A stretch of 64,000 nt of DNA, taken from positions 4,909,001 through 4,973,000 of the forward strand of contig NZ_CP101417.1 in assembly GCF_024339125.1 (NCBI RefSeq), read 5' to 3'. Positions within the stretch are counted from its first letter, which is position 1, and every line of letters begins with the position of its first letter. Position numbers and translations under genes: made by a program. Below the pieces are notes generated by a model that was not told where the DNA came from, made no database searches, and worked only from the letters and a program-made list of their open reading frames with translations. The stretch comes from Xanthomonas hortorum (GTDB taxonomy: Bacteria > Pseudomonadota > Gammaproteobacteria > Xanthomonadales > Xanthomonadaceae). Below, one piece after another: positions 40,213-60,330 of the stretch.

Positions 40213-40371
40213 ACGCGAGCGCCGCGGCCGCCTGGCCAATGCTGGCTGCGTGCGGATCGATGTGTGCTGGCAGGGCCGAATGCATTCCAACAATCGCAGC
40301 CTTGCACTCGCCTTGGGAGGTGATCGAACGGTGTGGATTGGTTGGTTGTAGAGCGGCTGATTTGCGGGTTT

Positions 40372-40551
40372 GCTGCAGGGCCCTTGCCCGTCCACCATCG
40401 CGGGACACGCCGCAAGTACGTTCTTGTACGGCATCAATGCCGCATGATGATCTGTGGCCTGGCTGCAGAGCCCTTGCCCGCCTACCATCGCGGGACACGC
40501 CGCAAGTACGTTCTTGTACGGCATCAATGCCGCATGATGATCTGTGGCCTA
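40372..40551. repeat. Two 90-bp tandem direct repeats within element 1
   Basis: Each unit runs from gctgcag (40372; 40462) to the next, with only a few base differences. The units resemble the left half of module A up to the conserved core cgccgcaagtacgt, then switch to a short hairpin ggcatcaatgcc and a spacer gatgatctgtggcct. A third start at 40552 continues into the intact A module. Confidence 0.9.
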
Positions 40552-40558
40552 GCTGCAG

Positions 40559-40666
40559 GGCCCTTGCCCGCCCACCATCGCGGGACACGCCGCAAGTACG
40601 TCCATGTAGGCTCTTACGCGGCATCCATGCCGCGTAAGGTCCCGCGACGGTGGGCGGGCAAGGACC
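40559..40666. repeat. Palindromic module A, element 1
   Basis: This is a 108-bp hairpin module. Outer arms cccttgcccgcccaccatcg (40561-40580) and cggtgggcgggcaagg pair nearly perfectly. The inner stem is cttacgcggcat/atgccgcgtaag (40613-40638). An unpaired-looking core cgccgcaagtacgtccatg lies on one side only, so the structure is asymmetrical. Confidence 0.85.
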
Positions 40667-40718
40667 AGTCGAGATGGTCGGTGTGCATGTTTTCAAGCGG
40701 CAGCAAACTGTCTGGTGC

Positions 40719-40817
40719 GGTGTCCTCGCCGATTGCGGGACCGTGTGGCGGCATGGATGCCGCCACCGAGCCTACATGGACGTACTTGCGGCGTGTCCCG
40801 CGAGCGGCGAGGACACC
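40719..40817. repeat. Palindromic module B, element 1
   Basis: This is a 99-bp hairpin module with outer arms ggtgtcctcgcc and ggcgaggacacc and inner stem gtggcggcat/atgccgccac. The one-sided core tacatggacgtacttgcgg is the reverse complement of the core in module A. The inner architecture is therefore shared while the outer arms are unrelated. Confidence 0.85.
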
Positions 40818-40996
40818 GCGCACTCGACCAACCAAGCTTTTGATCGCAGCTAAAACGGCGCCGCGACTTAAAACCTCTGTACTTGATCTCTGCACTTCAT
40901 TCGTCAACATCTCTGCACTTCATTCGTCAACAAAGGCGAGTGTGCCCAGCATTCGCGGCCATCGATGCAGCGTGCCAGAGGCCTGACTAGCCGCTC

Positions 40997-41200
40997 TTAG
41001 CGGCCGGCACGCAACAGACGCTTGTGCAATCCGCGCCGCTGCGCGTCGCTGAGCAGATGCCCATGGGTGGTCAACAATCCCAGGATCTGCTGATGCGCCT
41101 GTTCGGTGCGTCGGGCCAGTTCAGCGCTGGCGGCAGCTTCGATCGCCTTCCAGTCGGCGGGACTCGTTGGCGCGGGGATGGTCGAACGTTGTGCGGGCAT
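40997..41200 (-). CDS. Small hypothetical protein, stop codon within repeat end
   Basis: The 67-residue reading frame from ATG 41200 (a GTG at 41215 is the alternative) encodes a helical, charged protein: WKAIEAAASAELARRTEQAH, then GLLTTHGHLLSDAQRRGLHK. No family is recognised. The TAA stop at 40997-40999 is part of the terminal repeat of element 1, so the natural C-terminus may have been set by that element. Confidence 0.55.
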   Translation of the reverse strand: MPAQRSTIPAPTSPADWKAIEAAASAELARRTEQAHQQILGLLTTHGHLLSDAQRRGLHKRLLRAGR

Positions 41201-41467
41201 GGGCGACACGATCACGGAAACAGGCGCTCATGATACGGCGAGTGCGTGAGCGCTCTATCAGCGCCGGCGGCCCTGCCCTTCAGCGGCGCGCGCACTCGGG
41301 GCCGGACAGCAGGTGTGGGACACGCCAACTGAAAGGATGCCGCGTTGCGGCTCGCGAGGTCTGCGCGATCGACCACGCAAGAGCGGCGTGCTCGCGTCGC
41401 TTGCAATGCGAACTGCTGTACCACCTGATGGCCGATCAGGCCGATGCGCTGGTGGGTCAGATAGCCA

Positions 41468-41842
41468 TCACCGATGTGGCGCCGGTTCACCGATAGAAAG
41501 GAAGCAATCGAGCGTGTGTTCCAGCTCCGCGAAGGTGCACACCGTGCTGGACGCCACCATCGCACTGCGATCGCGGCAATTGAGCATCGCCACCACCTGC
41601 GCCGGTCGGTGATCACCCGGATACTTCCGTAGCGTCAGCTCGACTGCAACATCGCTGTGCCAGTGCGCCGTCTCCAACGACCAGCACGGATTGTCGAACC
41701 TCAGCAGCACCGTGCCAGCGCGTACATCGACGATCTGCGGGGTTTCCACCCACAGCGACATCCGCGCTTCCCATGCTGTGACCTCGATGCGGTAGCTGCC
41801 CAACGGCGATTGTCGCCAGGCCGTGGCATCGCCGACCGTCAC
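41468..41842 (-). CDS. Hypothetical protein downstream of cupin gene
   Basis: The 124-residue reading frame with GTG start at 41842 lies one base after the cupin stop. Trp/His-rich sequence such as [16 protein letters not shown] and [20 protein letters not shown] looks like a folded cytosolic protein. There is no signal peptide and I do not recognise the family. The tight spacing suggests co-expression with the cupin protein. Confidence 0.65.
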
Positions 41843-41843
41843 C

Positions 41844-42317
41844 TCACTGCGCCGCGTACTGCGCGTCGCTGACCTGTTCCAGCCAGGTCACCGGCGAGCC
41901 GTCCTGTGCCTCGGCGATGGCGATATGCGACATCGCCACCGTCGCGTTGGCGCCGTGCCAGTGCTTGACGCCCGGCGGAATCCACACGATGTCGCCGGGG
42001 CGGATCTCCTGCGCCGGCTTTCCCCACTCCTGCACACGCCCGGCACCGGCGGTGACGATCAGCGTCTGACCCAACGGATGGGTGTGCCAGGCAGTACGCG
42101 CGCCCGGCTCGAAGGTCACCGTGGCACCGCCCACCCGCGCTGGCGCATCGGTCTGGAATGGCGCATCGATACGCACCTTGCCGGTGAAATACTCGGCCGG
42201 GCCGACTGCAGAGGCCACGCCACCGGCCTTGCTCACCCTGATTGCTTGTTGCTCTTCACCACCGGGCGTGACGGCGGCCATCATCGACAGCGACATCGCA
42301 GTTGCGAACAGATTCAT
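41844..42317 (-). CDS. Secreted cupin-fold protein
   Basis: The ATG at 42317 follows AAGGAGCACTGCA. The 157-residue product has a short signal-like leader ([16 protein letters not shown]) and a single cupin barrel. Cupin motif 1 is [16 protein letters not shown] and motif 2 is [15 protein letters not shown], keeping the His-His-Glu/Gln and His metal ligands. It resembles the carboxymuconolactone-associated and quercetin-dioxygenase-like cupins of periplasmic redox loci. It is divergent from a LysR gene, its likely regulator. Confidence 0.87.
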
Positions 42318-42505
42318 TGCAGTGCTCCTTGATCCAGTGCCTGAACTGTAGCGCGCATGCGTACACCGACTACTCACCCGATTGCGCATGCACCTAGAAA
42401 CACAGCGCATCAATGCGGGCAATGCACTCGGATTTGAAGCCATCACGTACCATCACGCATGATGCAGCCGCATGAATGGCATGCCTGACGTCGGCATTCG
42501 CATCG

Positions 42506-43405
42506 ATGGCGCGTGAAAATCTCAACGATCTGCAGGTCTTCGTCACCGTGGCACGCGAAGGCAGCTTCACCCGTGCCGCCGCGCAACTGGGCGTCTCGCA
42601 GTCGGCGTTGAGCCATACCGTGCGCGCATTGGAAACGCGGCTTGGCATTCGTCTATTAACCCGCACCACACGCAGCGTGTCGATGACCGAAGCCGGCGCG
42701 CGTCTATTCGAGACCGTGGCACCGCGGCTGGAAGAAATCGACGACGAACTCTCGGCGCTCACCGAATTTCGCGACAAACCGGCCGGCACCATCCGCATCA
42801 CCACCGCCGGCCATGCCGCCGATGCCTACATCTGGCCGGCGCTATCGAAGGTGCTGCCCGACTATCCCGATCTCAAGATCGAGGTCACGGTCGATTATGG
42901 GCTAGCCGATATCGTCGCCGAGCGCTACGACATCGGCATCCGACTCGGCGACCAGGTGGCCAAGGACATGATCGCGGTGCCGATCAGCCCGATGCAGCGC
43001 ATGGCGGTGGTGGCGGTGCCGAGCTACTTCGTGCATCACACCATCCCGGCGGTGCCGGCCGAGCTGGCGCAGCACAATTGCATCGGCTTGCGCCTGCCCA
43101 CGCACGGCGGCCTGCTGCCCTGGGACTTCGAAAAGGACGGACGCGAAGTCAAGGTGCGGGTGGACGGGCAATGGACCTTCAACGGCAGCAGCGCGATCCT
43201 GCGCGCCGCATTGGCTGGCGGTGGACTGGCGTTTCTGCCGGAAACCATGGTGCTGGAACATATCGCCGCCGGCCGGCTGCGCCGCGTGCTGGACGACTGG
43301 TGCGACCCGTTCGACGGCTATTACGCCTATTACCCCAGCCGCCGCCAATCCTCCAGCGCACTCAAGGTGGTGATCGATGCGCTGCGGCACGATCTGGTGC
43401 GTTGA
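42506..43405 (+). CDS. LysR-type regulator divergent from cupin gene
   Basis: Starting at ATG 42506 (an ATG at 42476 is less likely), the 299-residue protein has an HTH (FVTVAREGSFTRAAAQLGVS, then QSALSHTVRALETRLGIRLL) and a periplasmic-binding-like effector domain. The motif GDQVAKDMIAVPIS and its position fit LysR regulators of the CrgA/PA2220-like type that control oxidoreductase genes. Its stop lies 46 bases before a degenerate palindromic fragment. Confidence 0.9.
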   Translation: MARENLNDLQVFVTVAREGSFTRAAAQLGVSQSALSHTVRALETRLGIRLLTRTTRSVSMTEAGARLFETVAPRLEEIDDELSALTEFRDKPAGTIRITTAGHAADAYIWPALSKVLPDYPDLKIEVTVDYGLADIVAERYDIGIRLGDQVAKDMIAVPISPMQRMAVVAVPSYFVHHTIPAVPAELAQHNCIGLRLPTHGGLLPWDFEKDGREVKVRVDGQWTFNGSSAILRAALAGGGLAFLPETMVLEHIAAGRLRRVLDDWCDPFDGYYAYYPSRRQSSSALKVVIDALRHDLVR

Positions 43406-43450
43406 CGCGGGCATTGGGGAGGGGTGCTATGGATGCCGCCCTGGAGACAA

Positions 43451-43524
43451 GGACGTACTTACTGCGTGTCCTGCGATGGTGCGCAGGCATGACTCTGCAG
43501 CCACGCCGCAGATCAGCCGCTCTA
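43451..43524. repeat. Degenerate module A right end
   Basis: It carries the core ggacgtacttactgcgtgtcc and the right boundary cgcagatcagccgctcta, which ends in a terminal-repeat copy (43513-43524). The left half and inner stem are missing, so this is a decayed copy lying beside element 2. Confidence 0.75.
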
Positions 43525-43609
43525 CACCTGATTTATCCGCACTGCTCAATCATTCCAAGACAACCGAGACTTCGCGTCGTCGCGTCGTTTGGATGTAGCC
43601 GAATACTCA

Positions 43610-43927
43610 ACAGCCTGGTTAGTCGAGCGCGCGGTGCCCTCGCCGCTCGCGGGACACGCCGCAAGTACGTCCATGTAGGCTCGGTGGCGGCATCCATGCC
43701 GCCACACGGTCCCGCAAGCGGCGAGGACACCGCACCAGACAGTTAATATGTTGCCTTGTTCAAAAGCATGCGCACCGACCATCTCGACTGGTCCTTGCCC
43801 GCCTACCATCGCGGGACCTTACGCGGCATGGATGCCGCGTAAGAGCCTACACGGACGTACTTGCGGCGTGTCCCGCGATGGTGGGCGGGCAAGGACCCTG
43901 CAGCCAAGAAGCAGATCAGCCGCTCTA
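43610..43927. repeat. Composite palindromic element 2 (B+A)
   Basis: The order is B (43633-43731), linker ending gcgcaccgaccatctcgact, then A (43790-43897), then the right terminus cagatcagccgctcta ending at 43927. The left terminus lacks the tagagcggc repeat and starts at about gttagtcgagcgcgcg. It fills the space between the LysR gene (ends 43405) and the convergent AKR gene, whose stop codon is at 43928-43930. Confidence 0.82.
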
Positions 43928-44914
<987 letters not shown>

Positions 44915-45153
44915 TTACTCCCGCGGCACACGGCCGCATTGGATGAGTCGGCCGCAGGCGGCAACACCGCTGCAGCACCGATGCCACACGATAATCCTGC
45001 GCCACGCGCACATTGCACAGCGGCTGGCGATAACGGTTATGAGCGCGCTTCATCAACGCAGTGGTCGGCATGCGTGTCATGAAGCGAGTGATGGGCGCAT
45101 ACAAACGCGACAGACACATGCAAACAGACCCCGCAAGCGCGGTTCCATCGCGC

Positions 45154-45846
45154 CTAGAACCCGCTCGGCACTTCGCGCTTGGTTGTGCCAACCGTGCGCG
45201 CAACATCCGGCCGATACGCACGCAAGAACAGCGCAACCGCACCGCTCACATAGCGCTCCTGCTGCACAAAATCCGCATCCACGCCATCGCCACGCATCGC
45301 AGCATTTGCAGGCAAGCCGGTCATCAAGCCGAAAAAATGCACCGAGGCATCGGGCAGATTGTCGATGACCAAGCTGCCCCGCTCCACCTCGCGCGCCAAC
45401 AGCGCGCGCATCATGCTGTCGTAGCGCTCGAAGGACAGCGTCCACATCTCTTCGCGCATCTGGCTGGGTAACAACGGCGGCCGCACCAGGCCATACGCCG
45501 CATCGTCCAGCGCGCCGCTGGTGGAGATCCGCAGCAGCGCCTTGGCGACCGCCGCCAGGCGCTGCTCCAACGGCGCCTGCATCTCCAATAACGCGTCCCA
45601 TCGGTTGGGCGATGCATGCGCCAGCGCTTCCAGCGTAGTGCGGAACAGCACCTCCTTGGACGCGAAATGCGCATACACCGTGGCCTTGGACACCATCGCA
45701 CGCTCGGCGATGGTGTCCATGCTGGTCCTGTCGAAACCTAGCTGCGGAAACAGCTGCCGCGCCGCCGCCAGAATCGCGCCACGTTTGTCGTGTGGCGCGC
45801 GCCTGGGCGGGCGGGCAGGCGCGGCATCAACGTCCGCCTCAGCCAT
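45154..45846 (-). CDS. TetR-family regulator, last gene of the efflux operon
   Basis: The 230-residue protein has an N-terminal HTH ([20 protein letters not shown], then [20 protein letters not shown]) and a longer C-terminal ligand domain. Its start (ATG 45846) overlaps the outer-membrane efflux gene stop by eight bases, so it is translationally coupled to the efflux genes. A second TetR gene lies at the other end of the operon. Confidence 0.88.
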
Positions 45847-47356
45847 TGGGCTGACCTGTCGCGGTGGTGGCCACAGTGGGCTCGGCCGATTGCAGCCAGC
45901 CGCCGCCCATCGCCTTGTAGAACGTCGCCAGATTGGTGAAGCGCGACAGCTGCGTGGTGATCAGGGTTTGCTGCGCGCTGTACAGCGAACGCTGCGCATC
46001 CAGCGCCTGCAGATAGCTGTCCACGCCGCGTTCGAAGCGCGCCTGCGACAGCCGGTAGCTGTCGGCAGTGGCATCCACCAGCGCCTGTTGCGCCTGCAAT
46101 TGCCGGCCCAGCGTCTCGCGCTGCGCCAGCGCATCGGACACTTCGCGGAATGCGCTCTGGATCGCCTTTTCGTACTGCGCCACTTCGATGGCGCGATTGG
46201 CCTTGGCCATGTCCAGATTGGCGCGGTTACGCCCGGCGTTGAAGATCGGCAACGTCAGCGTGGGCACAAAACTCCAGGCGCGGGTACCGGAATCGAACAG
46301 GTTGGACAGACTGCTGGTGGACGAGCCCTGCGATGCGGTCAGGCTGATGCTGGGAAAGAACGCCGCGCGCGCCGCACCGATATTGGCATTGGCCGCACGC
46401 AAGTTGCGCTCGGCTTCCAGGATGTCCGGGCGACGTTGCAGCAACTGCGACGGCAACCCGGCCGGCACGCTGGCCAGCACGTTGCCGTCCACGCTGGCGC
46501 CATCGGGCAACGCACGTGGCAACAGCTCCACCGGCACCTGCGTGCCCACCAGCAGCACCAGGGCATTACGATCCTGCGCCACCTGCGCGGTATAACGCTC
46601 CACATCCACGCGCGCGGTTTCCACCGTGGTCTGCGCCTGGCGCAAGGTGAGCTGCGAGGCCACGCCCAACTCGAAGCTGCGTTGCTGCAAGCGATAACTG
46701 TCGCTCTGGCTGCTCAAGGTGGACTGCGCCAACTGCAGCAACTGCTGATCCGCTGCCAGCGTCAGATAGGCGGTGGCCACTTCGGCCACCAGGCTGATGT
46801 GCGTGCTGCGGCGGGCCTCGGCGGTGGACAGAAACTGCTGAAGTGCCTGTTCCTTCAGGCTGCGCACACGCCCGAACAGATCCAGCTCGTACGCACTGAC
46901 GCCGATGTTGGCGCTGTAGGTCCGGAACACCTGCGGCTGGCCGGGAATGGCCAGCTCCGACGGTGTGCGCGCGTTGTTGGAGCTGCCGGTGCCTTGTATC
47001 GAGGGCAGCAACGCAGCGCGCTCCACCCGGTACTGCGCACGTGCCACCTCGATGTTGAGCGCGGCCACGCGCAGATCGCGATTGTTCTCCAACGCCAACG
47101 CGATCACCTGCTGTAGCGCGGGGTCGGTGAACACCTGCCGCCAGCCGATGTTGGCGATGTCCGTCGCCTCGTGGGTGCCGGTGCTGTTGGCGACGGTGTT
47201 GGCGGCGTCGGTGGCGTTCGAAGCAATCGTGCTGTCGGTGCCGGCAAAACGCTCCGGCACTGGCGCGTCGGGCCGCGCATAGCGCGGCATCAGCGTGCAA
47301 CCGGACAGCACGCTGGCCACCGCGATCGCGGTCAATGTCATGCGAATCGGGGTCAT
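45839..47356 (-). CDS. RND efflux outer membrane factor (NodT type)
   Basis: The 505-residue outer-membrane lipoprotein has a lipobox (VLSGC, Cys20). Two OEP repeats of alternating long helices and beta segments are visible; the second starts near [20 protein letters not shown]. It is the TolC-like exit duct of a tripartite pump. Its stop lies in the start region of the tetR gene, and it follows the RND pump gene with almost no gap. Confidence 0.92.
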
Positions 47357-47357
47357 C

Positions 47358-50300
47358 TCAGTGTCCTGTCGGTTGCGGGGCGGATGAAGTGGGCTGTGGT
47401 CGGCGCTTGAACAGGCCCATCACCAACACGAAGAACAACGGTACGAACAAGATCGCCAGGATCGTGCCGGACAACATGCCGCCGATCACGGCGGTGCCCA
47501 ACGCATGCTGCGCGCCTGCACCGGCACCACTGCCGAGCACCAACGGCACCACGCCCAGGATGAAGGCTAGCGATGTCATCAAGATTGGCCGCAAGCGCAT
47601 GCGCGCCGCTTCCAATGCCGAGTCGATCAGACTCTTGCCGCTTTCATGCAGCTCCTTGGCGAACTCCACGATCAGGATCGCGTTTTTCGATGCCAGACCA
47701 ATCGTGGTGAGCAGCCCCACCTGGAAGTACACATCGTTCATTTTCCAGGTCAGCATCGCGCCCAGCAGCGTGCCGAACACGCCCAACGGCACCACCAGAA
47801 TCACCGAGAACGGAATCGCCCAGCTTTCGTACAACGCGGCCAGACACAGGAACACGATCAGGATCGACAGGCCGTACAACAGGCCGGTCTGACCGGTCGA
47901 GGACTTTTCCTGCCTCGACAAACCAGTCCACTCGAAGCCGATGCCCGGCGGCAATTTGGCCGCCGCCGCTTCCACGATCTGCATCGCTTCGCCACTGGAT
48001 GCCGCGCCGGGCAGCGCCATGCCCAGGATTTCCACCGATGGCACGCTGTTGTAACGCTCCAACCGCGGCGAGCCCGATTGCCAGCTGGCGGTGGCGAAGG
48101 CGTTGAACGGCACCATGGTGCCGACGCTGTTGCGCACGAACCAGCGGTCGATGTCCTGCGGATTCATGCGGTACACCGCATCGGCCTGCAGCATCACCTT
48201 CTTGACGCGTCCCTTGTCGATGAAGTCGTTGACGTAGGTACTGCCCCATGCGCTGGAGAAGGTGTTGTTGATGTCGGCAATCGACACGCCCATGGCCTGC
48301 GCCTTGTGCGAATCGATCTCCAGCTTGAACTCGGGCGTGTCTTCCTGCCCGTTCGGACGTACCGCCACCAGGCGCTTGTCCTGCGACAGCTCGCCCAACA
48401 ATTGATTGCGCGCCTGCATCAAGGCCTCATGACCGAGATTGGCGCGGTCTTGCAGCATCAGGTCGAAACCGGTGGCATTGCCCAACTCGGACACCGCCGG
48501 CGGTGCGAACGCGAACACCCTGGCATCGCGGATGCCGGCGAAAAAGGCACCGGCCTTGGCCGCAACATCGGTGACGCTCTGCCCCTTGCCGGTGCGCTTG
48601 TCCCACGGCCGCAGCTTGACGAACGCCAGGCCGGTATTCTGGCCGCTACCGGCAAAACTGAAACCAGAGACGGCGAACACGCCAGCGACCGAATCCTTCT
48701 GGTCCACCAGAAAGTGATGCTCCACCTGCTTGAGCACCTCACCGGTGCGCGCATCGGTGGCACCGGGCGGCAACTGCACCAGCACGAACAGCGTGCCCTG
48801 GTCTTCGTCCGGCAAAAAGCCCACCGGCAACTTCATAAAGCCGAACACCACCAACGCCAGCAGCGCGGCATAGGCAAGCATGTACCCCCAGCCCTTGCCC
48901 AGCATGTGCCGCACCACGCCCTGGTAGCGGTTGTTGCCACGATCGAACACGCGGTTGAACCAACCGAAGAAACCGGTAGTGGCCAGGCCATGGCCTTTTT
49001 CCACCGGCTTGAGCAAGGTGGCGCACAGGGCCGGAGTCAGGATCATCGCCACTAGCACCGACAAGGTCATGGCCGAGACAATCGTGATCGAGAACTGCCG
49101 ATAGATCACACCGGTGGAGCCACCGAAGAACGCCATCGGCACAAACACCGCCGCCAGCACCAACGCCACGCCCACCAGCGCACCAGAGATCTGATCCATC
49201 GATTTACGCGTGGCTTCCTTGGGCGACAGGTGTTCTTCACCCATCACGCGCTCGACGTTTTCCACCACCACGATCGCATCGTCCACCAGCAAACCGATCG
49301 CCAGCACCATCGCGAACATGGTCAGCGTATTGAGGGTGAAACCGAACACCGCCAGCACCCCGAACGTGCCCAGCAACACCACCGGCACCGCAATGGTGGG
49401 GATCAAGGTCGCGCGGAAGTTCTGCAGAAACAGATACATCACCAGGAACACCAGCACCACCGCTTCGATCAGCGTGTGCACCACCTGCTCGATGGAGATC
49501 CGCACGAACGGGGTGGTGTCGTACGGCTTTTGCACCTTCATGCCGGGCGGGAAGAACTTCTCCTGCTCTTCCAGGCTTTTGTCGATGGCGCGCACGGTAT
49601 CCAGTGCGTTCGCACCGGTGGCCAGCTTGATCGCCAGACCGGCCGCCGGCTTGCCGTTGTAGCGGCCCACCGTGTTGTAACTCTCGCTGCCCAGTTCGAT
49701 GCGCGCCACATCGCGCAGCCGCACCTGCGCGCCATCGGACTGCGTGCGCAGCAGGATGTTTTCGAACTGCTCGGCCGTCTTGAGCCGGGTTTGCGCAGTG
49801 ATGGTGGCATTGAGTTGCTGATTGGCCACCGCCGGCAACGCACCCAGCTGGCCCGCCGAGACCTGCGCATTCTGCGCCTGGATCGCGGTGCGGACATCCA
49901 CCGGGGTCAGGCTGAAATTATTCAACTTGTTGGGGTCCATCCACACCCGCATGGCGTACTGCGAGCCGAACAAGGTGGTGTCGCCCACGCCTTCGACGCG
50001 GCTGATGGTTTCCTGCACGTTGGCCGCCACGTAATCGGACAGGTCCGAATCGCTCATGCTGCCGTCTTCGGAAGTGAAGGCCAGCACGTTGAGGAAGTTG
50101 GTGGCCGACTTGGTCACCGTCACGCCCTGCTGCTGCACTTCCTGCGGCAGCAACGGGGTGGCCAGCGACAACTTGTTCTGCACCTGCACCTGCGCGGTGT
50201 CCGGATCGGTGCCGTTGTCGAAGGTCAGGGTGATGGTCACCGCACCGCTGGATTCGCTTGTGGAGGCCATGTAGCTGAGGTGGTCCAGCCCCTTCATCTT

Positions 50301-50501
50301 CTGCTCGATGACCTGGGTGACGGTGTCTTCCAGGGTCTGTGCCGAAGCGCCCGGGTAGTTTGCGGTGATGGCGACGGCGGGCGGTGCGATGCTGGGGTAC
50401 TGCGCAATCGGCAGTGTGGCGATGGACAGGATGCCGGCCAGCATCACGATGATGGCCAACACCCAGGCGAAGATCGGACGATCGATAAAGAAACGTGCCA
50501 T
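47358..50501 (-). CDS. RND inner membrane efflux pump (AcrB/MexB type)
   Basis: The start ATG at 50501 gives the canonical [20 protein letters not shown]; the longer frame is discarded. At 1047 aa it has 12 transmembrane helices, two large periplasmic loops and the proton-relay Asp-Asp in [13 protein letters not shown]. The length and N-terminus match hydrophobe/amphiphile efflux pumps. It forms the pump with the adjacent adaptor and outer-membrane factor; exported drugs or plant compounds are likely. Confidence 0.95.
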
Positions 50502-50517
50502 GACGTGTGATCCCGCC

Positions 50518-51765: not shown

Positions 51766-51778
51766 GAGGATTAAATCT

Positions 51779-51792
51779 AAACGGTACGGTTT
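51779..51792. promoter_or_regulatory. Candidate TetR operator between efflux operon and tetR
   Basis: aaacggtacggttt is a 14-base imperfect palindrome (12 of 14 symmetric positions). It lies between the divergent efflux adaptor and tetR starts, close to the adaptor ATG. The symmetrical GTAC centre and AT-rich flanks fit operators of AcrR/SmeT-like repressors. Confidence 0.5.
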
Positions 51793-51873
51793 GGTATCCT
51801 AATAAGCTCATCCGTAGCCGTCAAGCATTCCTGCCCAGTCGGTATACTTAAAGTTCAAAAGTGGAGTGATTGG

Positions 51874-52494
51874 ATGCGGGTCAGAACCGAAGAAAAACGC
51901 GACGCCATCGTGCAGGCGGCCAGCGAGGTCTTCCTCGAGCTGGGCTTTGAAGGTGCCTCGATGTCGCAGATCGCCGCCCGCGTGGGCGGCTCCAAGCGCA
52001 CGTTGTACGGCTACTTCCCGTCCAAGGAAGAGCTGTTCGTGGCGTTTGCCAAGGACATGTCCGACCGTTATTTCGACCCGCTGCTGAGTGCGCTTTCGCA
52101 AAGCAGCGGCCCCGTTGCCGAGGCCCTGCAACGGTTCGGCGAGGACGTGCTCACCTTCTTGTGCGCAACGCCCAACATCACCAGTTGGCAGACCATCATC
52201 GGGGTATCCGGCAGATCAGACGTCGGCGCGCTGTTTTTCAGCGCCGGTCAACAAGAAGGCATGCAGCGCTTCGCCGAATACCTGCAGACACAAGTGGACT
52301 GCGGCCTGCTCCGCTGCGACGACACCCTGCTGGCCGCCCACCAGTTCGCCGCCCTGCTCGAAGCCGAAACCCTGATGCCCTGCCTGTTCGGCGCGCTCAA
52401 GGATCCCTCGCCCGAGTATCTACGCGACGCGACGCAGCGCGCAGTGGAGCTGTTTCTGGCGGGCTATGGATGCAAGAACACCGCTGCGGCGTGA
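51874..52494 (+). CDS. TetR/AcrR-type repressor divergent from efflux operon
   Basis: The 206-residue protein has the TetR HTH (IVQAASEVFLELGFEGASMS, then VGGSKRTLYGYFPSKEELFV) and a ligand-binding domain with an AefR-like tail. It is divergent from the RND operon with a palindrome between them, and so is the likely local repressor that releases the pump when a drug binds. A palindromic composite element starts 36 nt after its stop. Confidence 0.9.
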   Translation: MRVRTEEKRDAIVQAASEVFLELGFEGASMSQIAARVGGSKRTLYGYFPSKEELFVAFAKDMSDRYFDPLLSALSQSSGPVAEALQRFGEDVLTFLCATPNITSWQTIIGVSGRSDVGALFFSAGQQEGMQRFAEYLQTQVDCGLLRCDDTLLAAHQFAALLEAETLMPCLFGALKDPSPEYLRDATQRAVELFLAGYGCKNTAAA

Positions 52495-52530
52495 TGCGCG
52501 GCAGTGCTGCGTCTGCGCACTGCCTGCAAC

Positions 52531-52987
52531 TAAGAGCGGCTAACAAAACTACTTCACGCCAGCCTACTGCACAGGCCGACGGATCTGCGGCCTGGCTGCA
52601 GGGCCCTTGCCCGCCCACCGTCGCGGGACACGCCGCAAGTACGTCCATGTAGGCTCTTACGCGGCATCCATGCCGCGTAAGGTCCCGCGACGGTGGGCGG
52701 GCAAGGACCTGTCGAGTTGATCGGTGCGCATGGCTTTCAATAAAACAGCCGACCAACTTTCTGGTGCGGTGTCCTCACCGCTTGCGGGACCGTGTGGCGG
52801 CATGGATGCCGCAACCGAGCCCACATGGACGTACTTGCGGCGTGTCCCGCAAGCGGTGAGGGCACCGCGCACTCGACCCACGCAGCGTTTGATCTGGACC
52901 TCTGACTGCATCCACCAAGAGACCGCCGACAAAACCACTGCACTCACTGACAGGCGCTCGCTCGCCAGGTTTTTGTTAGCCGCTCTA
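52531..52987. repeat. Composite palindromic element 3 (A+B, intact TIRs)
   Basis: This is the best-preserved copy. taagagcggctaacaaaa at the left and ttttgttagccgctcta at the right share a perfect 16-base inverted repeat (AGAGCGGCTAACAAAA). Module A occupies 52602-52709, then the linker gtcgagttgatcggtgcgca, then module B at 52768-52866. It is located between the convergent tetR and zur genes. Confidence 0.88.
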
Positions 52988-53018
52988 AGTGAACCGTCCT
53001 GCGTTTGCCTGGCGATCC

Positions 53019-53513
53019 TTACTCGGCCACCGCGCACTTGGCGCACAAGCCATGCACTTCCAGCGTCTGCGCCTGCGGCTGAAAACCCAGTGCCTTGGCG
53101 CGGGCTTCCAGTTGCGAGACCACGTCGCGGTCTTCCAGCTCCACCGCGCTATGGCAGCGGTCGCAGATCAGGAACGGCACCGAGTGCTGGGCGCTGTTGG
53201 GGTGGTGGCAGGCGACGAAGGCGTTGACCGATTCGAGCTTGTGCACGAAGCCATTGGCCATCAGAAAATCCAGCGCGCGGTACACCGTGGGCGGCGCGTC
53301 GGCGCCGACGCCCTTGCCTTCGCGCACCCAGTCCAGCAGCTCATAGGCCTTGACCGGCTTACCGGCATCGGCGATCAGCCGCAGCACATTGGCGCGGATC
53401 GGCGTCAGCCGCAGGCCGCGCTCGGTGCAGGCGCGCTCCACCGCGCGCACGAAGCCGTTGGCGTCGTCGACGTGGTGATGCGGTGCAGTGCAGGCGTGTT
53501 CGTTGGTTTTCAT
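53019..53513 (-). CDS. zur: Zinc uptake regulator Zur (Fur family)
   Basis: The 164-residue Fur-family protein has a winged helix (RLTPIRANVLRLIADAGKPV), H-H-P-N at the metal hinge, and two C-x-x-C pairs (CDRC and CAKC) for structural zinc. The leader MKTNEHACTAPHHHVDD matches Zur more than Fur. Its start (ATG 53513; GTG at 53516 also possible) lies 15 nt after the gltX stop. It would repress zinc uptake genes such as those at 24.2 kb. Confidence 0.9.
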   Translation of the reverse strand: MKTNEHACTAPHHHVDDANGFVRAVERACTERGLRLTPIRANVLRLIADAGKPVKAYELLDWVREGKGVGADAPPTVYRALDFLMANGFVHKLESVNAFVACHHPNSAQHSVPFLICDRCHSAVELEDRDVVSQLEARAKALGFQPQAQTLEVHGLCAKCAVAE

Positions 53514-53528
53514 CACAGGCTCCGGCGG

Positions 53529-54932
53529 TCAGCCCGCTCCTATCTTGATGAGTGCCGCATCGATGCGTTTCAAGGCGCCCTCGCGGCCGGCCAGGTACAC
53601 CGTCTGCGAAATATCCGGGCTGACCTGGGTGCCGGTGATGGCCACGCGCAGGGGCTGGGCGACCTTGCCCATGCCCAGCTCCAGCGCGGCCGCCGCATCG
53701 TGCAGCGCGGCCGAAACGTTTTCCACACTCCATTCGCTGACGCCGGCCAGCAGTTCGCGTGCCTTGCCCAGCGGTACTTCGGCGCCCAGCTTCAGGTGCT
53801 TGATCACTGCGGCTTCGTCATAGGTTTCCAGCGGCTGGTACCAGACCACGGCTTTTTCGGCCATTTCCTTCAAGGTCTGCACGCGCTCGCGCAGCGCCAC
53901 CACCACATCGGCGGCGGCCGGGCCGGCAGCGACATCGATGCCGAGCTTGGCCAGCTGGTATTCCAGCTGCGGGGCGATGCTGGCCGGGTCGTCGGTCTTG
54001 AGGTAATGCTGATTGACCCAGCCGAGCTTGGCCATGTCCAGCCGCGCAGCCTTGGAATTGACGTCCTTGACGTCGAACAGGTCGAGCAATTCCTGCTGGG
54101 TGAACAACTCCTGGTCGCCGTGCGACCAGCCCAGACGTGCCAGATAATTGATCAACGCATGCGGCAGATAGCCGGCATCCCTGTACTGCATCACGTCGGC
54201 CGCGCCGGTGCGCTTGGACAGCTTGGCGCCCTGCTCGTCCAGGATCATCGGCATATGCGCGAACTTGGGCACCGGCGCGCCCAGCGCTTCGTAGATGTTG
54301 ATCTGGCGCGGGGTGTTGTTGATGTGGTCGTCGCCGCGAATCACCTCGGTGATGCCCATGTCCCAGTCGTCCACCACCACCGCGAAGTTGTAGGTGGGGA
54401 AGCCGTCCGGGCGGAAGATCACCATGTCGTCGAGCTCGCTGTTGGCGATCTCGATGACGCCCTTGATCAGGTCGTCGAACACCACCGTGCCGGCTTGCGG
54501 ATTTTTGAAGCGGATCACCCGGTTGGGGTCGTCGCGGTACGGCAGGTTCTGCTCGCGGGCGGCGCCGTTGTAGCGCGGCTTTTCCTGTTTGGCCATCGCG
54601 GCTTCGCGCATGGCGTCGAGCTCGGCGCGGGTTTCGTAGGCGTAGTACGCCTTGCCCTGCGCCAGCAGCTGCTCGGCGACCTCCTGATAGCGGGCCACGC
54701 GCTGGGTCTGGTAGATCGGGCCTTCGTCGTAGTCCAGGCCCAGCCACTCCATCGCCTCCAGGATGGCGTCGATCGCCTCCTGGGTGCTGCGCTCACGGTC
54801 GGTGTCTTCGATGCGCAGCACGAACTGCCCGCCGCGGTGGCGTGCCTCCAGCCAGCAATACAGGGCGGTGCGGGCGCCGCCGATGTGCAGGTAACCGGTG
54901 GGGCTGGGGGCAAAACGGGTGCGGCAGGTCAT
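53529..54932 (-). CDS. gltX: Glutamyl-tRNA synthetase
   Basis: The ATG at 54932 gives [20 protein letters not shown], with the class I HIGH-type motif H-I-G-G and the KMSKS equivalent K-L-S-K-R. The 467-residue length fits bacterial GluRS. The anticodon-binding region ends near [12 protein letters not shown]. It charges tRNA-Glu. The longer frame upstream lacks family sequence. Confidence 0.95.
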
Positions 54933-54999
54933 GGAGCGCTCGGCGAAACGGGTGTCGGCCGATTTTACCTTGCGCAGCGCAGACCTGCCCGCTTGCGGC

Positions 55000-56091
55000 T
55001 CAGCGGTTGCGCAGCAGGTCGCCGTAGACCACGCAATCGCCACCGCTGCGCGCCGGGCCCGGCGCGTCGTACAGCACCAGCCAGCTGGGCGTGTCGCCGG
55101 CGAGATGTTTGGGCAGGTTGCAGATCGCCTCGGCACGGTCGCTGTCGGTGCCATGCGGCAACACCGCCGATTCCAGCAGGTCGTGCTGAAAACGCACCGG
55201 CGCCTGGTTGGCGGCCAGCACAGCACGCGCGTCCGGCCATTTGAACAGGCGGATTTCGCCGTTCAGCACCATGGTCGGCCCGGCCAACAGGTACAGGTCG
55301 TCGCCGGAATAATGCAGGTCGCGGATGCCCAGCCCGCCCAGTTGCAGGAAGTGCTTGCGCAACAGCGTGCCGTCTTCGTCCAGCGGCGCCAGGCGTAGGT
55401 GATCACCATGCGCCTCGACCCGGATTTCCAGCATTGCCGACCAGCCGCGCAGCACCGGCCCACGCAGGCCCAGCAGCAGCCGTTGGCCGTCCACCACGAT
55501 GCCTTCGATATCGAAGCCGTTGTCCTTGCCCGGGATCTTCAGAAACGGGCCGAAATGCGGGTCGTCGGCCAGCAGGTCGGTGAGCTGGCTGTGCTTGGCA
55601 TCGCCCTTGAGTCGCAGCGCGCGACGGCCGTCGGCGGCTTCGCGCACCAACCGTGGCGTGCCGTCGTCGTCGCGCTCGATCGGCAGACAGGCCAGCAGGC
55701 GACGGTTGGCATCGAGTTTGAGCTTGGTCAGGCGCTTGGCGTTTTCGGCATCGTCGCGGCTGCGTTTGGCATTTTTGCGCTTGAGGCCATGCGAGCCGAT
55801 CACCCACAGAAATCCATCCGACAGCGCAATGCCTTCCAGATCCGCCTCCTCGGCCGCCTCGCCCGGCAGATCCAGCAACTCGGCCAGCGCAAAGCTCTGC
55901 CCTTGGCCGAAGCGCAGCGTCTCGCGCTGCACGGGATCGAGCTTGCGCAGCCGATCCACCGCGCAGGCTTCGTCGCCGGCCACCCACAGCCAGTCGTCGG
56001 TGAAGGCCGCGCCGGACAGATTGCTGTGCACCAACGCGCCGGGCGCGAATTCGAGCCGGACGCTGTGCGGAATCAGAGTTTTCTTGGCCAT
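55000..56091 (-). CDS. DUF3616 domain-containing protein
   Basis: The 363-residue protein has repeated blade-like strands such as [20 protein letters not shown] and [20 protein letters not shown], features of DUF3616 proteins. There is no signal peptide or membrane helix. Many Leu-Gly-Leu and Trp-rich strands suggest a beta-propeller-like fold, which is inference. It lies between the gltX and nitrilase genes on the same strand. Confidence 0.82.
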
Positions 56092-56112
56092 GGGAACCTG
56101 GTGGGTGGTGGG

Positions 56113-56997
56113 TCAGTCGAACGCGGCCAGCTTGGCACGCGCTACGTGAGCGGCCAACTGCCCGTGCCAATCGCGGTCGTTGGCGACCTGCGCGTGTGCG
56201 CGGCTGGCTTCGAAGGCGTCGAAGTCCAGCTCCGCATAGGCCCACACCGCATCGCCGTGCGTCTGCGCCAGCACGCCATCGGCCGGGAAGCCGACATCCA
56301 TCGGCGCGAACACCGCCGCCTCGCCAGTATTGACGTCCAGCACCGGGCTCCACGGCGCCTCGCCGGCGGTGACCGATTGCGCAACGAACACACGATTTTC
56401 CAGCGCGCGCGCCAGGCAGCCGATGCGCACCCGCATCGCGCCGGCGGCGGTGTCGGTGCAGCTGGGCACGATCAACAGCCGCGCACCGGCTTCGTACTGC
56501 GCACGCACCGGCAGCGGAAATTCGCTGTCGTAGCAGATCGCAATCGCTGCGCGCACGCCATCGAGCTCGAACACCTTCAGCGCATCGCCGGGATCGATCA
56601 GCCCGGTGGCCTTTTCGAAGCCGGTGAGTTGCAGTTTGTCTTGCCAACCGTGCCGGCCCTCGGGCGTAAACCAGTCGCTGCGATTACGGTAGCGGCCCTG
56701 GCCCAGGTCCAGCAGAAAGCTGCCGGCAATCAGATGCACCTGATGCTGGCACGCCAATCCGGAAAACAGCTCCAGCCACGGCGCACGCAGCGCCTGGATC
56801 GCCGCCAGCGACTCCGGCAAACCGGCAGAAACCTGCGTGCCGAAGGTTGCGCCAAGCTCCAGCGCCAGATACTCCGGCAGTACCAGCACACGTGCGCCGG
56901 CAGCGGCGGCTTCACTCACCAACGCGGATTGACGCGCGGCGAACGCAGCGAAATCGGCGGGTTTGCCGATCGGATATTTGGCGACGGCGATTTTCAT
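56113..56997 (-). CDS. Carbon-nitrogen hydrolase (nitrilase superfamily)
   Basis: The ATG at 56997 gives MKIAVAKYPIGKPADFAAFA. The 294-residue protein has the nitrilase triad Glu42 (LPEY), Lys121 (GWQDK) and Cys155 (IAICYDSEF). It belongs to the amidase/omega-amidase-like side of the superfamily, hydrolysing C-N bonds of amides or nitriles. The substrate is not evident. It is followed 21 nt later by the DUF3616 gene. Confidence 0.9.
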   Translation of the reverse strand: MKIAVAKYPIGKPADFAAFAARQSALVSEAAAAGARVLVLPEYLALELGATFGTQVSAGLPESLAAIQALRAPWLELFSGLACQHQVHLIAGSFLLDLGQGRYRNRSDWFTPEGRHGWQDKLQLTGFEKATGLIDPGDALKVFELDGVRAAIAICYDSEFPLPVRAQYEAGARLLIVPSCTDTAAGAMRVRIGCLARALENRVFVAQSVTAGEAPWSPVLDVNTGEAAVFAPMDVGFPADGVLAQTHGDAVWAYAELDFDAFEASRAHAQVANDRDWHGQLAAHVARAKLAAFD

Positions 56998-57055
56998 CTG
57001 GTGGCCTTGTTGCGATTGATCGGAAGGTGCGACGTGGCGAGGCGCTCGTTGGCAA

Positions 57056-57658
57056 TCATGACGACACCGCACGCGTCCACACGCTCAAGCTGTGGTCGAT
57101 CTCGCCGTGTTGCAACTCCGCCCATGCCAACTGCACGCGCATCTGCGGTTGCGGCGCATAGCCACGCTTGCGCCAGAACACATCGTTGGGTCGGTAGTCG
57201 GCCGGCTTGCGCGGATCGTCGAGTGCGCGCTCCACGGAGCAAAATGCAGTGAGCGCGAATCGGCCCATAGTGCGTGCATGTGCTTCACGTCGGTCGAAAA
57301 ATGCGTGACCGATCCCCTGCCCGCGATACGCCGGCAGCAACACCGATTCGCCGAAATAGAACACGCTGGCCGGGTCGATGCCGGCCACGCGAAATGGCAC
57401 GTGGAAGGCCTCGCTGTCGTCGAGCAACGGCAAACCGGTAGAGGCACCGATCACCGCATCGCCATCGCGTGCCAGCACGAACACGCTGTCTGGCGAGGCC
57501 GCATACGCAGCCAGATAACCGCGTTCGTAATCGGCATCGCCCTCGTACAGATACGGCCATGCGCGGAACACCGCGATGCGCAGCTGCGCTACCGCATCCA
57601 GATGCGGCAACACGTCCGTGCCGCGCACCGTTTCGACGATCAGGGAGGAACCAGTCAT
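57056..57658 (-). CDS. GNAT family N-acetyltransferase
   Basis: From ATG 57658 the 200-residue protein has the acetyl-CoA loop R-G-Q-G-I-G with preceding VFYFGESVLLPAY, and other GNAT landmarks. It likely acetylates a small molecule or protein amino group; no substrate is evident. Fifty-eight nt separate its stop from the nitrilase gene. Confidence 0.85.
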   Translation of the reverse strand: MTGSSLIVETVRGTDVLPHLDAVAQLRIAVFRAWPYLYEGDADYERGYLAAYAASPDSVFVLARDGDAVIGASTGLPLLDDSEAFHVPFRVAGIDPASVFYFGESVLLPAYRGQGIGHAFFDRREAHARTMGRFALTAFCSVERALDDPRKPADYRPNDVFWRKRGYAPQPQMRVQLAWAELQHGEIDHSLSVWTRAVSS

Positions 57659-57701
57659 GCCTGCATGGTAAGCGAGCCTGACCCGCCTGCCACATCGCGC
57701 C

Positions 57702-58124
57702 TCACCGCAGCCAACGGCCGTTGCCCGGACCCGCCGCATCGGGTTGCTGCCATAGCAGCCACACCGCCGCTTCTTCGGCGGCCAGCAGCACCCCGAGCAG
57801 TGCATCGGTACTGCGCGTCCAATAGCTGCCGTTGTTCAGCCGCTGCCATGGCCCGTAGCTGCGCGTCGGCGCCGTGCCAGGCGGCGCTTTGTGCTGCTGC
57901 GCCGCCTGCAAAAAAACGGCTCCGCCCGTACACAGCGCCTGTGCGGTCGCTGCATGCAGGCGCAGGCCGACCACCCCGCCGCGCCCCTCACGGCCGAGCG
58001 GCAACGCCGACAACGGCGAACATTCCCAACGTTGCAGTGGCGCTGCGGGAAGCAGCGCCACCGTGTCGATCCCGGCGGGCAGCAAACGCTGCGCCCGCCG
58101 GTGTACCTGTGCGTGAGCGAGCAT
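57702..58124 (-). CDS. Hypothetical protein downstream of creD
   Basis: The 140-residue reading frame from ATG 58124 lies seven bases after the creD stop and is probably translated from the same mRNA. It is Ala/Leu-rich, with WERSPLSALPLG-like and WQRLNNGSYWTRSTDALLGV segments; no signal or family is recognised. The creD context suggests an envelope role only indirectly. Confidence 0.65.
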   Translation of the reverse strand: MLAHAQVHRRAQRLLPAGIDTVALLPAAPLQRWECSPLSALPLGREGRGGVVGLRLHAATAQALCTGGAVFLQAAQQHKAPPGTAPTRSYGPWQRLNNGSYWTRSTDALLGVLLAAEEAAVWLLWQQPDAAGPGNGRWLR

Positions 58125-58131
58125 GCCGGCC

Positions 58132-59451
58132 TCAGCGCAGGCTGTTGCCAAGCTCGTACCAATCGAGCTTGCGGGTGACCCACATGATGCTGGCCAGGAT
58201 GCCGAACAGCAGCAACGATCCCATCAGCAGCGCGTTGTCTTCGGAGACCAGCAGGCTGTAGAGCACGCCATACAACGCGGTGAGCATCACCGAGAACCCC
58301 GCCGCGCGTGCCCAGCTGCGCAATACCCCGGACAGATAGAAGAACTGCAGACCGATACACGCAGCGGCCGACACCAGATACGCCTGCCAGAACGCGATGT
58401 GCTCGGAAAGGCTCAACAGCAGCAGGAAGAAGATCGCCAGCGCCAGACCCACCAGCAGGTACTGCAAGGGATGGATCGGCAAGCGCTTGATCAACTCGAA
58501 CAGCACGAACGCCACAAACGTCAGCACCACGAACAGGATGCCGTACTTGCTGGCGCGGTCGGCCTGGGTATACACGTCCACCGGGTCGACCAGGCGCACT
58601 TCCAGCGTATCCAGCGACGATTGGCTGGACTGCAACTGGGTCTGCGCACCGGTGGCCAGCGACGACAGCGACCAGCTGGCATCGAAGCCCTTCGGCCCGA
58701 TGCTCGGCGCGTTCGGCAGGAAGCGGCCGCCGAAGGACGGGTATTGCCAGCTGGAGCGCAAGGCGATCTCGTTGTTGTCGGCGATCGGTGCGATGGCAAG
58801 CCGGCGCGTGCCGTCCAGCACGAACTGCATATCCACCACGTTGCCGTCCTGCACGCGGCCGGCGACCGGGTCGGCCAGCGGGCTCAGTTGGGCATGGATC
58901 CCTGCCGAGCGATCGGCCAATGCGCCTGCGCCGCTTTCCAGTGCCAGCGTGCGTCCATCCACCTGCAGGCGCGGTGTGCCCACCAGCCCGCGCACATCGG
59001 AAATGCCCACCGCCAGGTGCGGCTGGCCATACACGCGGGTCGGCGCGGCGACGTAGTCAAACGGTGCGTACTCGGCATGCAGGGTCGCTTTCCAGGAATA
59101 CACCTGCACGCGATACAGGCCCACTTCGCGCACCGAGGGCACCATCTCGCCGCTGAGTTTCAGGCTGCGCGGGGTCTGCAGCAGCGCGCCTTCGCGCTTG
59201 CGCCACACCTTGCGCTGGTTGCCCTGCTCGTCCGGCTCGGTGACCTGCACGTCTTCGGTATACGGCAGCACCCGCACCGGCGCGATGAACTGCTGCTCGC
59301 CGGCCTTGCTCTGCGCCACCCGCTCCACCGCCTCGTCGCGGTAGCGGGCGCGGTCCTGCACGGCGCCGCGGATCAACAGCAATGGAATCAGCAGCAGCAG
59401 GATCAGCCCGCCGATGGTGGCGAACCGCAACAACAGTTTCAGGGATTTCAT
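58132..59451 (-). CDS. creD: Inner membrane protein CreD
   Basis: The 439-residue protein starts MKSLKLLLRFATIGGLILLL (one TM). A long periplasmic domain follows (VRVLPYTEDVQVTEPDEQGN to WSLSSLATGAQTQ). A four-to-five-helix C-terminal membrane domain contains LPIHPLQYLLVGLALAIFFL, the CreD signature. CreD is the target of CreBC and affects envelope and beta-lactam phenotypes. Palindromic DNA separates it from creC, so it probably has its own promoter with a Cre-tag-like repeat. Confidence 0.92.
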   Translation of the reverse strand: MKSLKLLLRFATIGGLILLLLIPLLLIRGAVQDRARYRDEAVERVAQSKAGEQQFIAPVRVLPYTEDVQVTEPDEQGNQRKVWRKREGALLQTPRSLKLSGEMVPSVREVGLYRVQVYSWKATLHAEYAPFDYVAAPTRVYGQPHLAVGISDVRGLVGTPRLQVDGRTLALESGAGALADRSAGIHAQLSPLADPVAGRVQDGNVVDMQFVLDGTRRLAIAPIADNNEIALRSSWQYPSFGGRFLPNAPSIGPKGFDASWSLSSLATGAQTQLQSSQSSLDTLEVRLVDPVDVYTQADRASKYGILFVVLTFVAFVLFELIKRLPIHPLQYLLVGLALAIFFLLLLSLSEHIAFWQAYLVSAAACIGLQFFYLSGVLRSWARAAGFSVMLTALYGVLYSLLVSEDNALLMGSLLLFGILASIMWVTRKLDWYELGNSLR

Positions 59452-59505
59452 CGGCCATCCTCATTCTTGGAGGTGGCCAGGGTGCGATGTGCCGGTGTGG
59501 AGGGT

Positions 59506-59532
59506 TTGAGGCGAATTTGAAGCGAATGTGAA
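59506..59532 (-). promoter_or_regulatory. Cre-tag-like direct repeat upstream of creD
   Basis: On the minus strand the stretch reads TTCAC-ATTCGC-TTCAA and continues ATTCGC-CTCAA. This gives half-sites spaced 11 bases apart, matching the E. coli Cre tag TTCAC-N6-TTCAC except for the last base of the second half. It lies 66-81 nt upstream of the creD ATG, consistent with CreB activating a creD promoter there. Confidence 0.6.
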
Positions 59533-59572
59533 GTGGGCAATCAGCTGGCGAATCGTCGTGCCTTGCTGCAAT

Positions 59573-60330
59573 TAGAGGGGCTAACAAAAACTGGCAAGCG
59601 CTCGCCTGGGTCGAGGGCGCGGTGCCCTCGCCGATCGCGGGACACGCCGTGAACCCATCCCTGGGGGCTCGGTGGCGGCATCCATGCCGCCACACAGTCC
59701 CGCAATCGGCGAGGACACCGCACCAGACAGGTTGCTGATTGCTTTATTGAGAACAGGACACGGCGCCAGCCAGTTTGCTGGATGCTTTGTTGAAAGCCAT
59801 GACCACCGACCATCTCGACTGGTCCTTGCCCGCCCACCGTCGCGGGACCTTACGCGGCATGGATGCCGCGTAAGAGCTTACAAGGACGTACTTGCAGCGT
59901 GTCCCGCGATGGTGGGCGGGCAAGGCCCTGCAGCAAACCCGCAGCATCGAGGGCGCGGTGCCCTCACCGCTCGCGGGACACGCCGCAAGTACGTCCATGT
60001 AGGCTCGGTGGCGGCATCCATGCCGCCACACGGTCCCGCAATCGGTGAGGACACCGCGCCAGAGAGTTCGTCGGTAGTTTGATGAAAGCCTACCTGTTGA
60101 TCGCGTTGCGTTTTGCGTTGCGAAGCTGATGGGCCGCAGCGTTGTCCAAATAACACACCATGCTTTGCTTGCAACCATGCGCACCGACCATCTCCACTGG
60201 TCCTTGCCCGCCCACCGTCGCGGGACCTTACGCGGCATGGATGCCGCGTAAGAGCTTACAAGGACGTACTTGCAGCGTGTCCCGCGACGGTGGGCGGGCA
60301 AGGGCCCTGCAGCCAGGCCGCAGATCAGCC
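59573..60330. repeat. Composite palindromic element 4 (B-A-B-A)
   Basis: This double copy has B1 (59621-59719; core altered to gtgaacccatccctgggg), A1 (59821-59927), B2 (59957-60055) and A2 (60199-60306). The left terminus tagaggggctaacaaaaa starts at 59573. The right terminus cagatcagcc overlaps the creC stop codon at 60325-60327. It occupies the whole creC-creD gap and so splits what is a contiguous operon in other bacteria. Confidence 0.85.

Follow-up and report, generated by a model that had tools for sequence, protein, structure and literature searches.

The window analysed here is a stretch of 64,000 nucleotides from the genome of Xanthomonas hortorum (assembly GCF_024339125.1, 5.44 Mb). 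It contains four composite palindromic elements, elements 1 to 4, at positions 40349-40999, 43451-43927, 52531-52987 and 59573-60330. A sequence-only reading had described them as built of two modules of constant length, A (108 bp) and B (99 bp), with inverted ends. Reading of the sequence together with a repeat search gives five full A modules of 108 bp, five full B modules and three A fragments. The lengths are constant in the window, as proposed, although B measures 103 bp by the ends used here. The composite architecture is upheld, but the two modules are stem variants of a single one: A and B share the strand ACGCCGYRARYMCRTCCMTGKRGGCTC (the 27-nt core), which has opposite orientations in A and B throughout the window. 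None of the 19 mechanical open reading frames (ORFs) of at least 100 amino acids overlapping the loci has a Pfam match, in agreement with the earlier statement that the elements carry no coding region or transposase (a flanking histidine kinase gene, overlapping element 4 by six bases, was excluded). We lean, with little more than even confidence, to the reading that A and B are variants of a dispersed module, similar to the repetitive extragenic palindromic (REP) sequences, that encodes a predicted double CsrA/RsmA-binding site, which the inverted pair would present on either strand.

The module consists of a long outer stem of free sequence, the tip of which is formed by the conserved 27-nt strand and a second hairpin. 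The outer stem is 25-35 bp long in most modules seen; its sequence is unrelated between lineages, but is mostly still paired. The strand opposite the core, called here the GGA strand, has the consensus 5'-GAGCCUACANGGAYGUAYUYRCGGCGU-3', within which UACANGGAYGUA makes up the first hairpin, hp1. The modules had been called strongly hairpin-forming. This is borne out by six folds covering four modules, of which two were folded on each strand; their z values range from -3.2 to -11.8, and none of 200 shuffled sequences was equally stable in any of the six.

The core occurs exactly 141 times in the X. hortorum genome (73 + 68) and its reversed control does not occur; all further counts for this genome are from a sample drawn from 100 of these 141 places. 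A survey of 274 genomes from 222 genera of Gammaproteobacteria, X. hortorum included, found the core in 16 genomes and 15 genera, with a maximum of 237 copies in genome G283 and no control match throughout; a count of copies had been proposed with the sequence-only reading. Among the matches listed in a scan of named genomes, most are from Xanthomonas, accompanied by Luteimonas, Lysobacter, Stenotrophomonas, Pseudoxanthomonas, Parahaliea and a metagenome-assembled genome (MAG). The module is not specific to Xanthomonas.

Pairing is kept where the sequence differs. In 31 representatives, 577 of 620 cells hold Watson-Crick pairs, compared with a mean of 330 and a maximum of 362 upon shuffling; choosing the best offset makes the outer-stem counts partly circular, while hp1 and the GCC/GGC helix stand at fixed positions. 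Two pairs of hp1 alternate across the representatives between U-A and C-G (19 and 11) and between A-U and C-G (19 and 12), with one failure in 62 cells. Covariation is also seen copy by copy in 197 cores of the X. hortorum genome (retrieved with up to 5 mismatches), where three pairs change together, being C-G in 171 and U-A in 21 (5 exceptions), U-A in 180 and C-G in 15 (2 exceptions), and A-U in 159 and C-G in 36 (2 exceptions).

On the GGA strand the CsrA/RsmA consensus CANGGANG is found in each of the two apical loops, as judged from sequence and covariation. In two papers this consensus is given as RUACARGGAUGU from in vitro selection (SELEX) and as (A/U)CANGGANG(U/A) in the RsmE complex (PMC6692469, PMC7652899). 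In the 197 cores the loop positions are fixed as C (194), A (196), G (197), G (197), A (196), Y (193) and G (196), whereas position N is free (U 91, C 54, G 34, A 18). The 105 cores of G283 have the same pattern of conservation. The second hairpin has a stem different from that of hp1. Its loop presents GGA in 423 of 433 modules, a set from which modules with weak stems (score under 12) were excluded. These counts are biased for the loci taken from the named-genome scan because the scan pattern included the hairpin; the X. hortorum, G283 and class-survey loci were retrieved with the 27-mer or with element 3. The distance between the two GGA motifs could be measured in 426 of the 433 modules; it is 23 nt in 384 of these and 21-24 nt in all. 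Each of the ten full modules in the window has exactly two copies of CANGGANG on one strand, 23 nt apart, and 21 of the 55 copies of this octamer in the 64 kb fall within the four elements. One CsrA/RsmA dimer bridges sites 10-63 nt apart, with an optimum above 18 nt, according to PMC7652899. The modules, having two sites each, lie within this range. A CsrA gene is found in 15 of the 16 core-bearing genomes, a count that covers core-bearing genomes only and is therefore weak support.

The two kinds of mismatch in the outer stem are not equally frequent. The stem finder gave A-C and G-T mismatches equal scores, but on the core strand A-C exceeds G-T by 405 to 17 in X. hortorum, 516 to 34 in other Xanthomonas and 154 to 33 in the remaining genomes. 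By genome or genus group the excess is found in 11 against 2, with 7 tied. The latter count is fairer than the raw numbers because common descent accounts for many of the mismatches in Xanthomonas; it uses corrected taxon labels for L143 (Pseudoxanthomonas), L150 (Luteimonas), L152 (Stenotrophomonas) and L161 (a MAG), which were grouped as Xanthomonas when the 31 representatives were picked. A-C mismatches on the core strand are G·U pairs on the GGA strand. The simplest reading is that selection acts on the GGA strand, either as RNA or as folded DNA that tolerates G-T; strand-biased deamination could contribute to the excess.

Neighbouring A and B modules in the X. hortorum genome are convergent in 69 cases (38 + 31) and in the other order in 16; 15 more neighbours are of the same type on the same strand. 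Most inverted pairs have one of two main spacings, 207-215 and 287-307 bp. Because A and B mostly converge, most pairs give one GGA-strand module in either direction of transcription. Of 56 X. hortorum arrays with usable neighbours, 25 stand between convergent genes and 2 between divergent ones. Transcription would usually come by read-through from a flanking gene, and the transcribed unit would be a double site fit for one RsmA/CsrA dimer, with the inverted A-B pairing allowing such a site to be made from either side. Transcripts running off the end of a gene would then bind RsmA/CsrA through the double hairpin, titrating the regulator or marking the mRNA end. Since the double site would fit one dimer, many copies could titrate the regulator or recruit it locally. 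A wider proposal, held more tentatively and at somewhat less than even confidence, is that scattered Gammaproteobacteria carry a selfish or domesticated repeat encoding a putative double CsrA/RsmA hairpin, and that the inverted pair of Xanthomonas may act as an orientation-independent sponge or relay at many gene ends.

Hairpins dispersed between genes are commonly classed as mere debris left in the DNA by REP transposition. A family with conserved structure and paired regulator-binding loops at a fixed spacing would, if real, tie the proliferation of repeats to global regulation. Were the modules transcribed and bound by RsmA/CsrA, they would amount to a large number of decoys for this regulator scattered over the genome, adding candidate RsmA antagonists in Xanthomonas besides RsmU.

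The modules resemble the small RNAs that sequester CsrA/RsmA (CsrB/C, RsmX/Y/Z, and RsmU of X. campestris) in presenting GGA in the loops of short hairpins, in the motif CANGGANG and in having several sites per RNA. Unlike those RNAs, they are scattered as 141 exact cores in one genome, each unit has a long stem with two sites, and no dedicated gene was seen. They resemble the REP, BIME and REPIN repeats associated with RAYT proteins (the GTAG superfamily, including the Xaxo and Xcam REPs) in being high-copy intergenic palindromes that form inverted dimers and have lineage-specific stems. They differ in measuring 103-108 bp rather than 20-40 bp, in having an asymmetric conserved strand of 27 nt, and in lacking a defined GTAG head, the corresponding place in the core being occupied by GTAGG, CTGGGGG or CTGGAGG. 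The core was absent from all 30 Y1_Tnp loci fetched with flanks of about 1.5 kb on each side or to the contig end (drawn from 44 PF01797 matches; 13 genomes were searched and 11 gave matches). In X. hortorum itself a single RAYT-like gene was found, and it is flanked by Xcam REPs instead; as far as these loci go, a RAYT-driven REP is rejected. Published Xanthomonas REPs, as listed in Table 1 of PMC2817692, begin GTAGGAGCGC; when up to 4 mismatches were allowed, they matched the window at a single place, 5504, outside the elements. The CGTC-tagged REPs are likewise palindromic, often form heterodimers and have no known dedicated transposase, but have stems of 8-9 bp and loops of 4-5 nt, according to PMC3733652, in the main text of which the string "Xanthomon" does not occur. 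Rfam 15 gave no match at the gathering score in the window, and the 13 matches around element 3 at E values up to 5 are all below their gathering scores. No report of the core or of such a repeat was found in searches of open-licence papers in PubMed Central. The earlier impression that this is not a recognised family agrees with these comparisons, in which no named REP, MITE (miniature inverted-repeat transposable element) or BIME family was matched. The dispersed hairpins are REPIN-like, with a content unrecorded for such repeats in the open-licence papers searched.

A different explanation, doubtful in our opinion but the most probable of the alternatives, is that the module is a selfish DNA hairpin of the REP/REPIN kind. 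The core and hairpins would be the recognition site of a nuclease or transposase on single-stranded DNA, the tolerance of G-T would reflect one folded DNA strand, and the likeness to CsrA sites would be coincidental. The high copy number, the patchy distribution and the inverted A-B heterodimers with their two main spacings count in its favour. Several further observations also speak for it, and they weigh against a binding site acting in RNA. Conservation of the 27-nt core goes beyond the needs of a GGA site, extending to the GCC/GGC helix and the YUYRC bulge of 5 nt. Single-module genomes have no bias of transcription sense, the adjacent gene reading the GGA strand in 48 cases and the core strand in 60 (102 arrays). 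The proposed hp1 was formed in none of four free folds of the GGA strand of window modules, although three of the four formed the second hairpin and placed its GGA in the loop; hp1 therefore rests on covariation and not on folding energy. An RNA-level role is also weakened by the facts that the likeness to CsrA sites was noticed after the fact, that the stem is not followed by a U-run on either of the strands, the T fractions being 0.256 and 0.264, and that the core-bearing genome G230, with 3 exact cores, has no CsrA match. Furthermore, none of 30 comEA 3' flanks of the genus (300 bp downstream, up to 5 mismatches) holds a module, so that there is none at RsmU. RsmU, the known RsmA-binding small RNA of X. 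campestris, is a different RNA and was rejected as a copy of the module. According to PMC7694677, changing all four predicted GGA motifs of RsmU did not abolish its binding or function. The selfish-DNA explanation, however, does not predict a free N beside the fixed C, A, G, G, A and G of the loop, and the core is missing from the 30 RAYT loci fetched. G283 has only a weak replichore signal, 26 to 15 when counted over those 15 stretches, out of 20, that have a clear GC skew. A lagging-strand insertion bias in that genome had been suggested by the presence of only plus-strand copies past 0.93 Mb among the matches listed, and was discarded when the fetched stretches were found to hold minus-strand copies there.

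A minority of the module copies lie inside a separate, MITE-like shell, some of them with 3-bp TWA duplications. The shell has the ends GAGCGGCTAACAAAA...TTTTGTTAGCCGCTC and a duplication of TAA or TTA. Equal 3-bp duplications are found in 11 of 19 shell end pairs in X. hortorum (another 9 of 28 loci have no pair) and in 12 of 16 short end pairs from elsewhere in the genus, which were retrieved with a pattern that already had TAA set on one side. They favour the proposal that the elements are ordinary MITEs with A and B as passive cargo, as does the difference in element content between species at one orthologous site. We consider this proposal improbable, and as a general explanation of A and B it is refuted, although it holds for the shell. 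The same ends surround unrelated contents of 67 bp and about 141 bp, and the core is present in other families of the class. Moreover, in a sample of 83 A/B arrays the 16-base end (up to 3 mismatches) flanks only 9 on both sides and 23 on one, and 51 have it on neither, so the earlier view of the inverted ends as the boundary of the composite is correct for element 3 and fails in general. A looser 11-base search of the 83 arrays gave both sides in 18, left only in 28, right only in 24 and neither in 13, with any match in 10 of 83 displaced controls and 12 of 83 in the wrong orientation; 38 of its 88 side matches are an A-side end like TGCAGAGCGGCTGATCTGC, always 57 bp away from the outermost core. 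Because 51 of the 83 arrays have no such end and the contents can be unrelated, the shell accounts for some of the copies and not for the whole family. It would move the module copies that it encloses. Target-site duplications, the search for which had been suggested with the sequence-only reading, are thus present at element 3 and at shell pairs, and are seen with the shell.

The position of the arrays might instead suggest bidirectional terminators or stabilisers of mRNA 3' ends between convergent genes, which is very improbable. The stems are very stable, and a simple ORF finder, which gave a usable neighbour on both sides in 56 arrays, fewer than the 83 sampled above, placed 25 of these between convergent and 2 between divergent genes. 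In G283, however, the corresponding numbers are 20 and 16. A terminator would have no need of the conserved 27-nt strand, and an intrinsic terminator is rejected for the lack of a U-tract.

In the window, only element 3 has clean 16-base ends. They form a perfect inverted repeat, as the sequence-only reading had noted (20 bases at 95%), with a TAA/TAA target duplication. Element 4 has one left end, which carries a mismatch. Elements 1 and 2 are bounded by a related but different sequence, of the AGAGCGGCTGAT type on the A side. The 16-mer, when up to 3 mismatches are allowed, is found 3 times in the window, where 0.29 matches would be expected; none of 100 shuffles gave as many as 3. The coordinates of the modules and ends are collected in the table.

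Table. Modules, fragments and shell ends of the four elements, in window positions
Element	Feature	Position	Strand	Remarks
1	Two truncated tandem A units, 90-bp spacing	40379..40537	+	TCC/GGA gone from core loop
1	The same two units as separate fragments	about 40379-40447 and 40469-40537	+	From repeat search
1	Full A module	40559..40666	+	Core 40587-40613 on +; GGA-loop RNA would be - strand
1	Full B module	40717..40819	-	Core 40768-40794 on -
2	A fragment	43447..43489	-	86% to 43849-43891
2	Full B module	43631..43733	+	Core 43656-43682
2	Full A module	43790..43897	-	Core 43843-43869 on -
3	Left end: TAA target duplication (52531-52533), terminal inverted repeat (52533-52548)	52531..52548	+	MITE-like shell
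3	Full A module	52602..52709	+	Core 52630-52656
3	Full B module	52766..52868	-	Core 52817-52843 on -
3	Right terminal inverted repeat (52971-52986) and TAA duplication (52986-52988)	52971..52988	-	MITE-like shell
4	Left shell end	59574..59589	+	One mismatch to the 16-mer
4	Full B module	59619..59721	+	Core 59644-59670; hp1 stem variant CCC/GGG
4	Full A module	59821..59928	-	Core 59874-59900 on -; GCC/GGC changed to GCT/AGC
4	Full B module	59955..60057	+	Core 59980-60006
4	Full A module	60199..60306	-	Core 60252-60278 on -

Element 2 is situated between the ends of a LysR-type gene and an aldo/keto reductase gene. The ends of a TetR-type gene and of a minus-strand Fur-type gene flank element 3. 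Element 4 lies between two minus-strand genes, the histidine kinase gene and creD. Element 3 has no match in the plasmid collection.

The site of element 3 gave some match in 26 of 35 genomes, and 22 loci were compared (the weak L406-L409 being omitted). The A-B element is present in five of them, namely X. hortorum, G021, G022, G023 and G031, the last with a shortened A. Two have A only (G003, G018) and two a stub of the right end (G001, G016). The remaining 13 have no element match, some being too diverged for close alignment; in L400 and L401 the right flank was not found. Loci with no element match thus occur among relatives, where empty sites had been thought worth seeking, but a clean empty site was not found among the 22. 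As the number of modules varies between species at one site, the composite is not a fixed unit. In L385 (G021) the A-side sequence at this site is expanded to a short series of tandem units resembling GATCTGCTGCCTGGCT.

With respect to mobility, the shell resembles the IS5/IS1031-type MITEs in having ends that start with GAG and a 3-bp TNA duplication, a likeness that concerns the shell only. It differs from them in that no autonomous partner with these ends was identified. Shell ends surround an A-B element together with an IS5-type (DDE_Tnp_1) transposase ORF at L009 599-2293, and an IS110 transposase ORF at L010 619-2234. Genome G020, of the same genus (4.1 Mb), has 49 + 46 exact shell ends, and the seven listed pairs hold about 142 bp with TAA on both sides; these copies are likely to be an active MITE family. 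A PCR primer carrying the shell end is listed for a "putative transposase" in PMC2893596. The A-side end TGCAGAGCGGCTGATCTGC, found in X. hortorum 57 bp outside the A core, resembles the shell end, and its GCAGA/TCTGC can self-pair.

A second composite, made of C and D modules with the same core and other outer stems, occurs in the X. hortorum genome at 87950-88299, 236917-237275 and 3117734-3118196. The exact core is also present in two IMG/VR viral contigs (L414 6228-6254 and L415 2555-2581), in one of which a palindrome surrounds it. Within element 1, positions 40886-40931 hold an exact tandem duplication of 23 bp, ATCTCTGCACTTCATTCGTCAAC.

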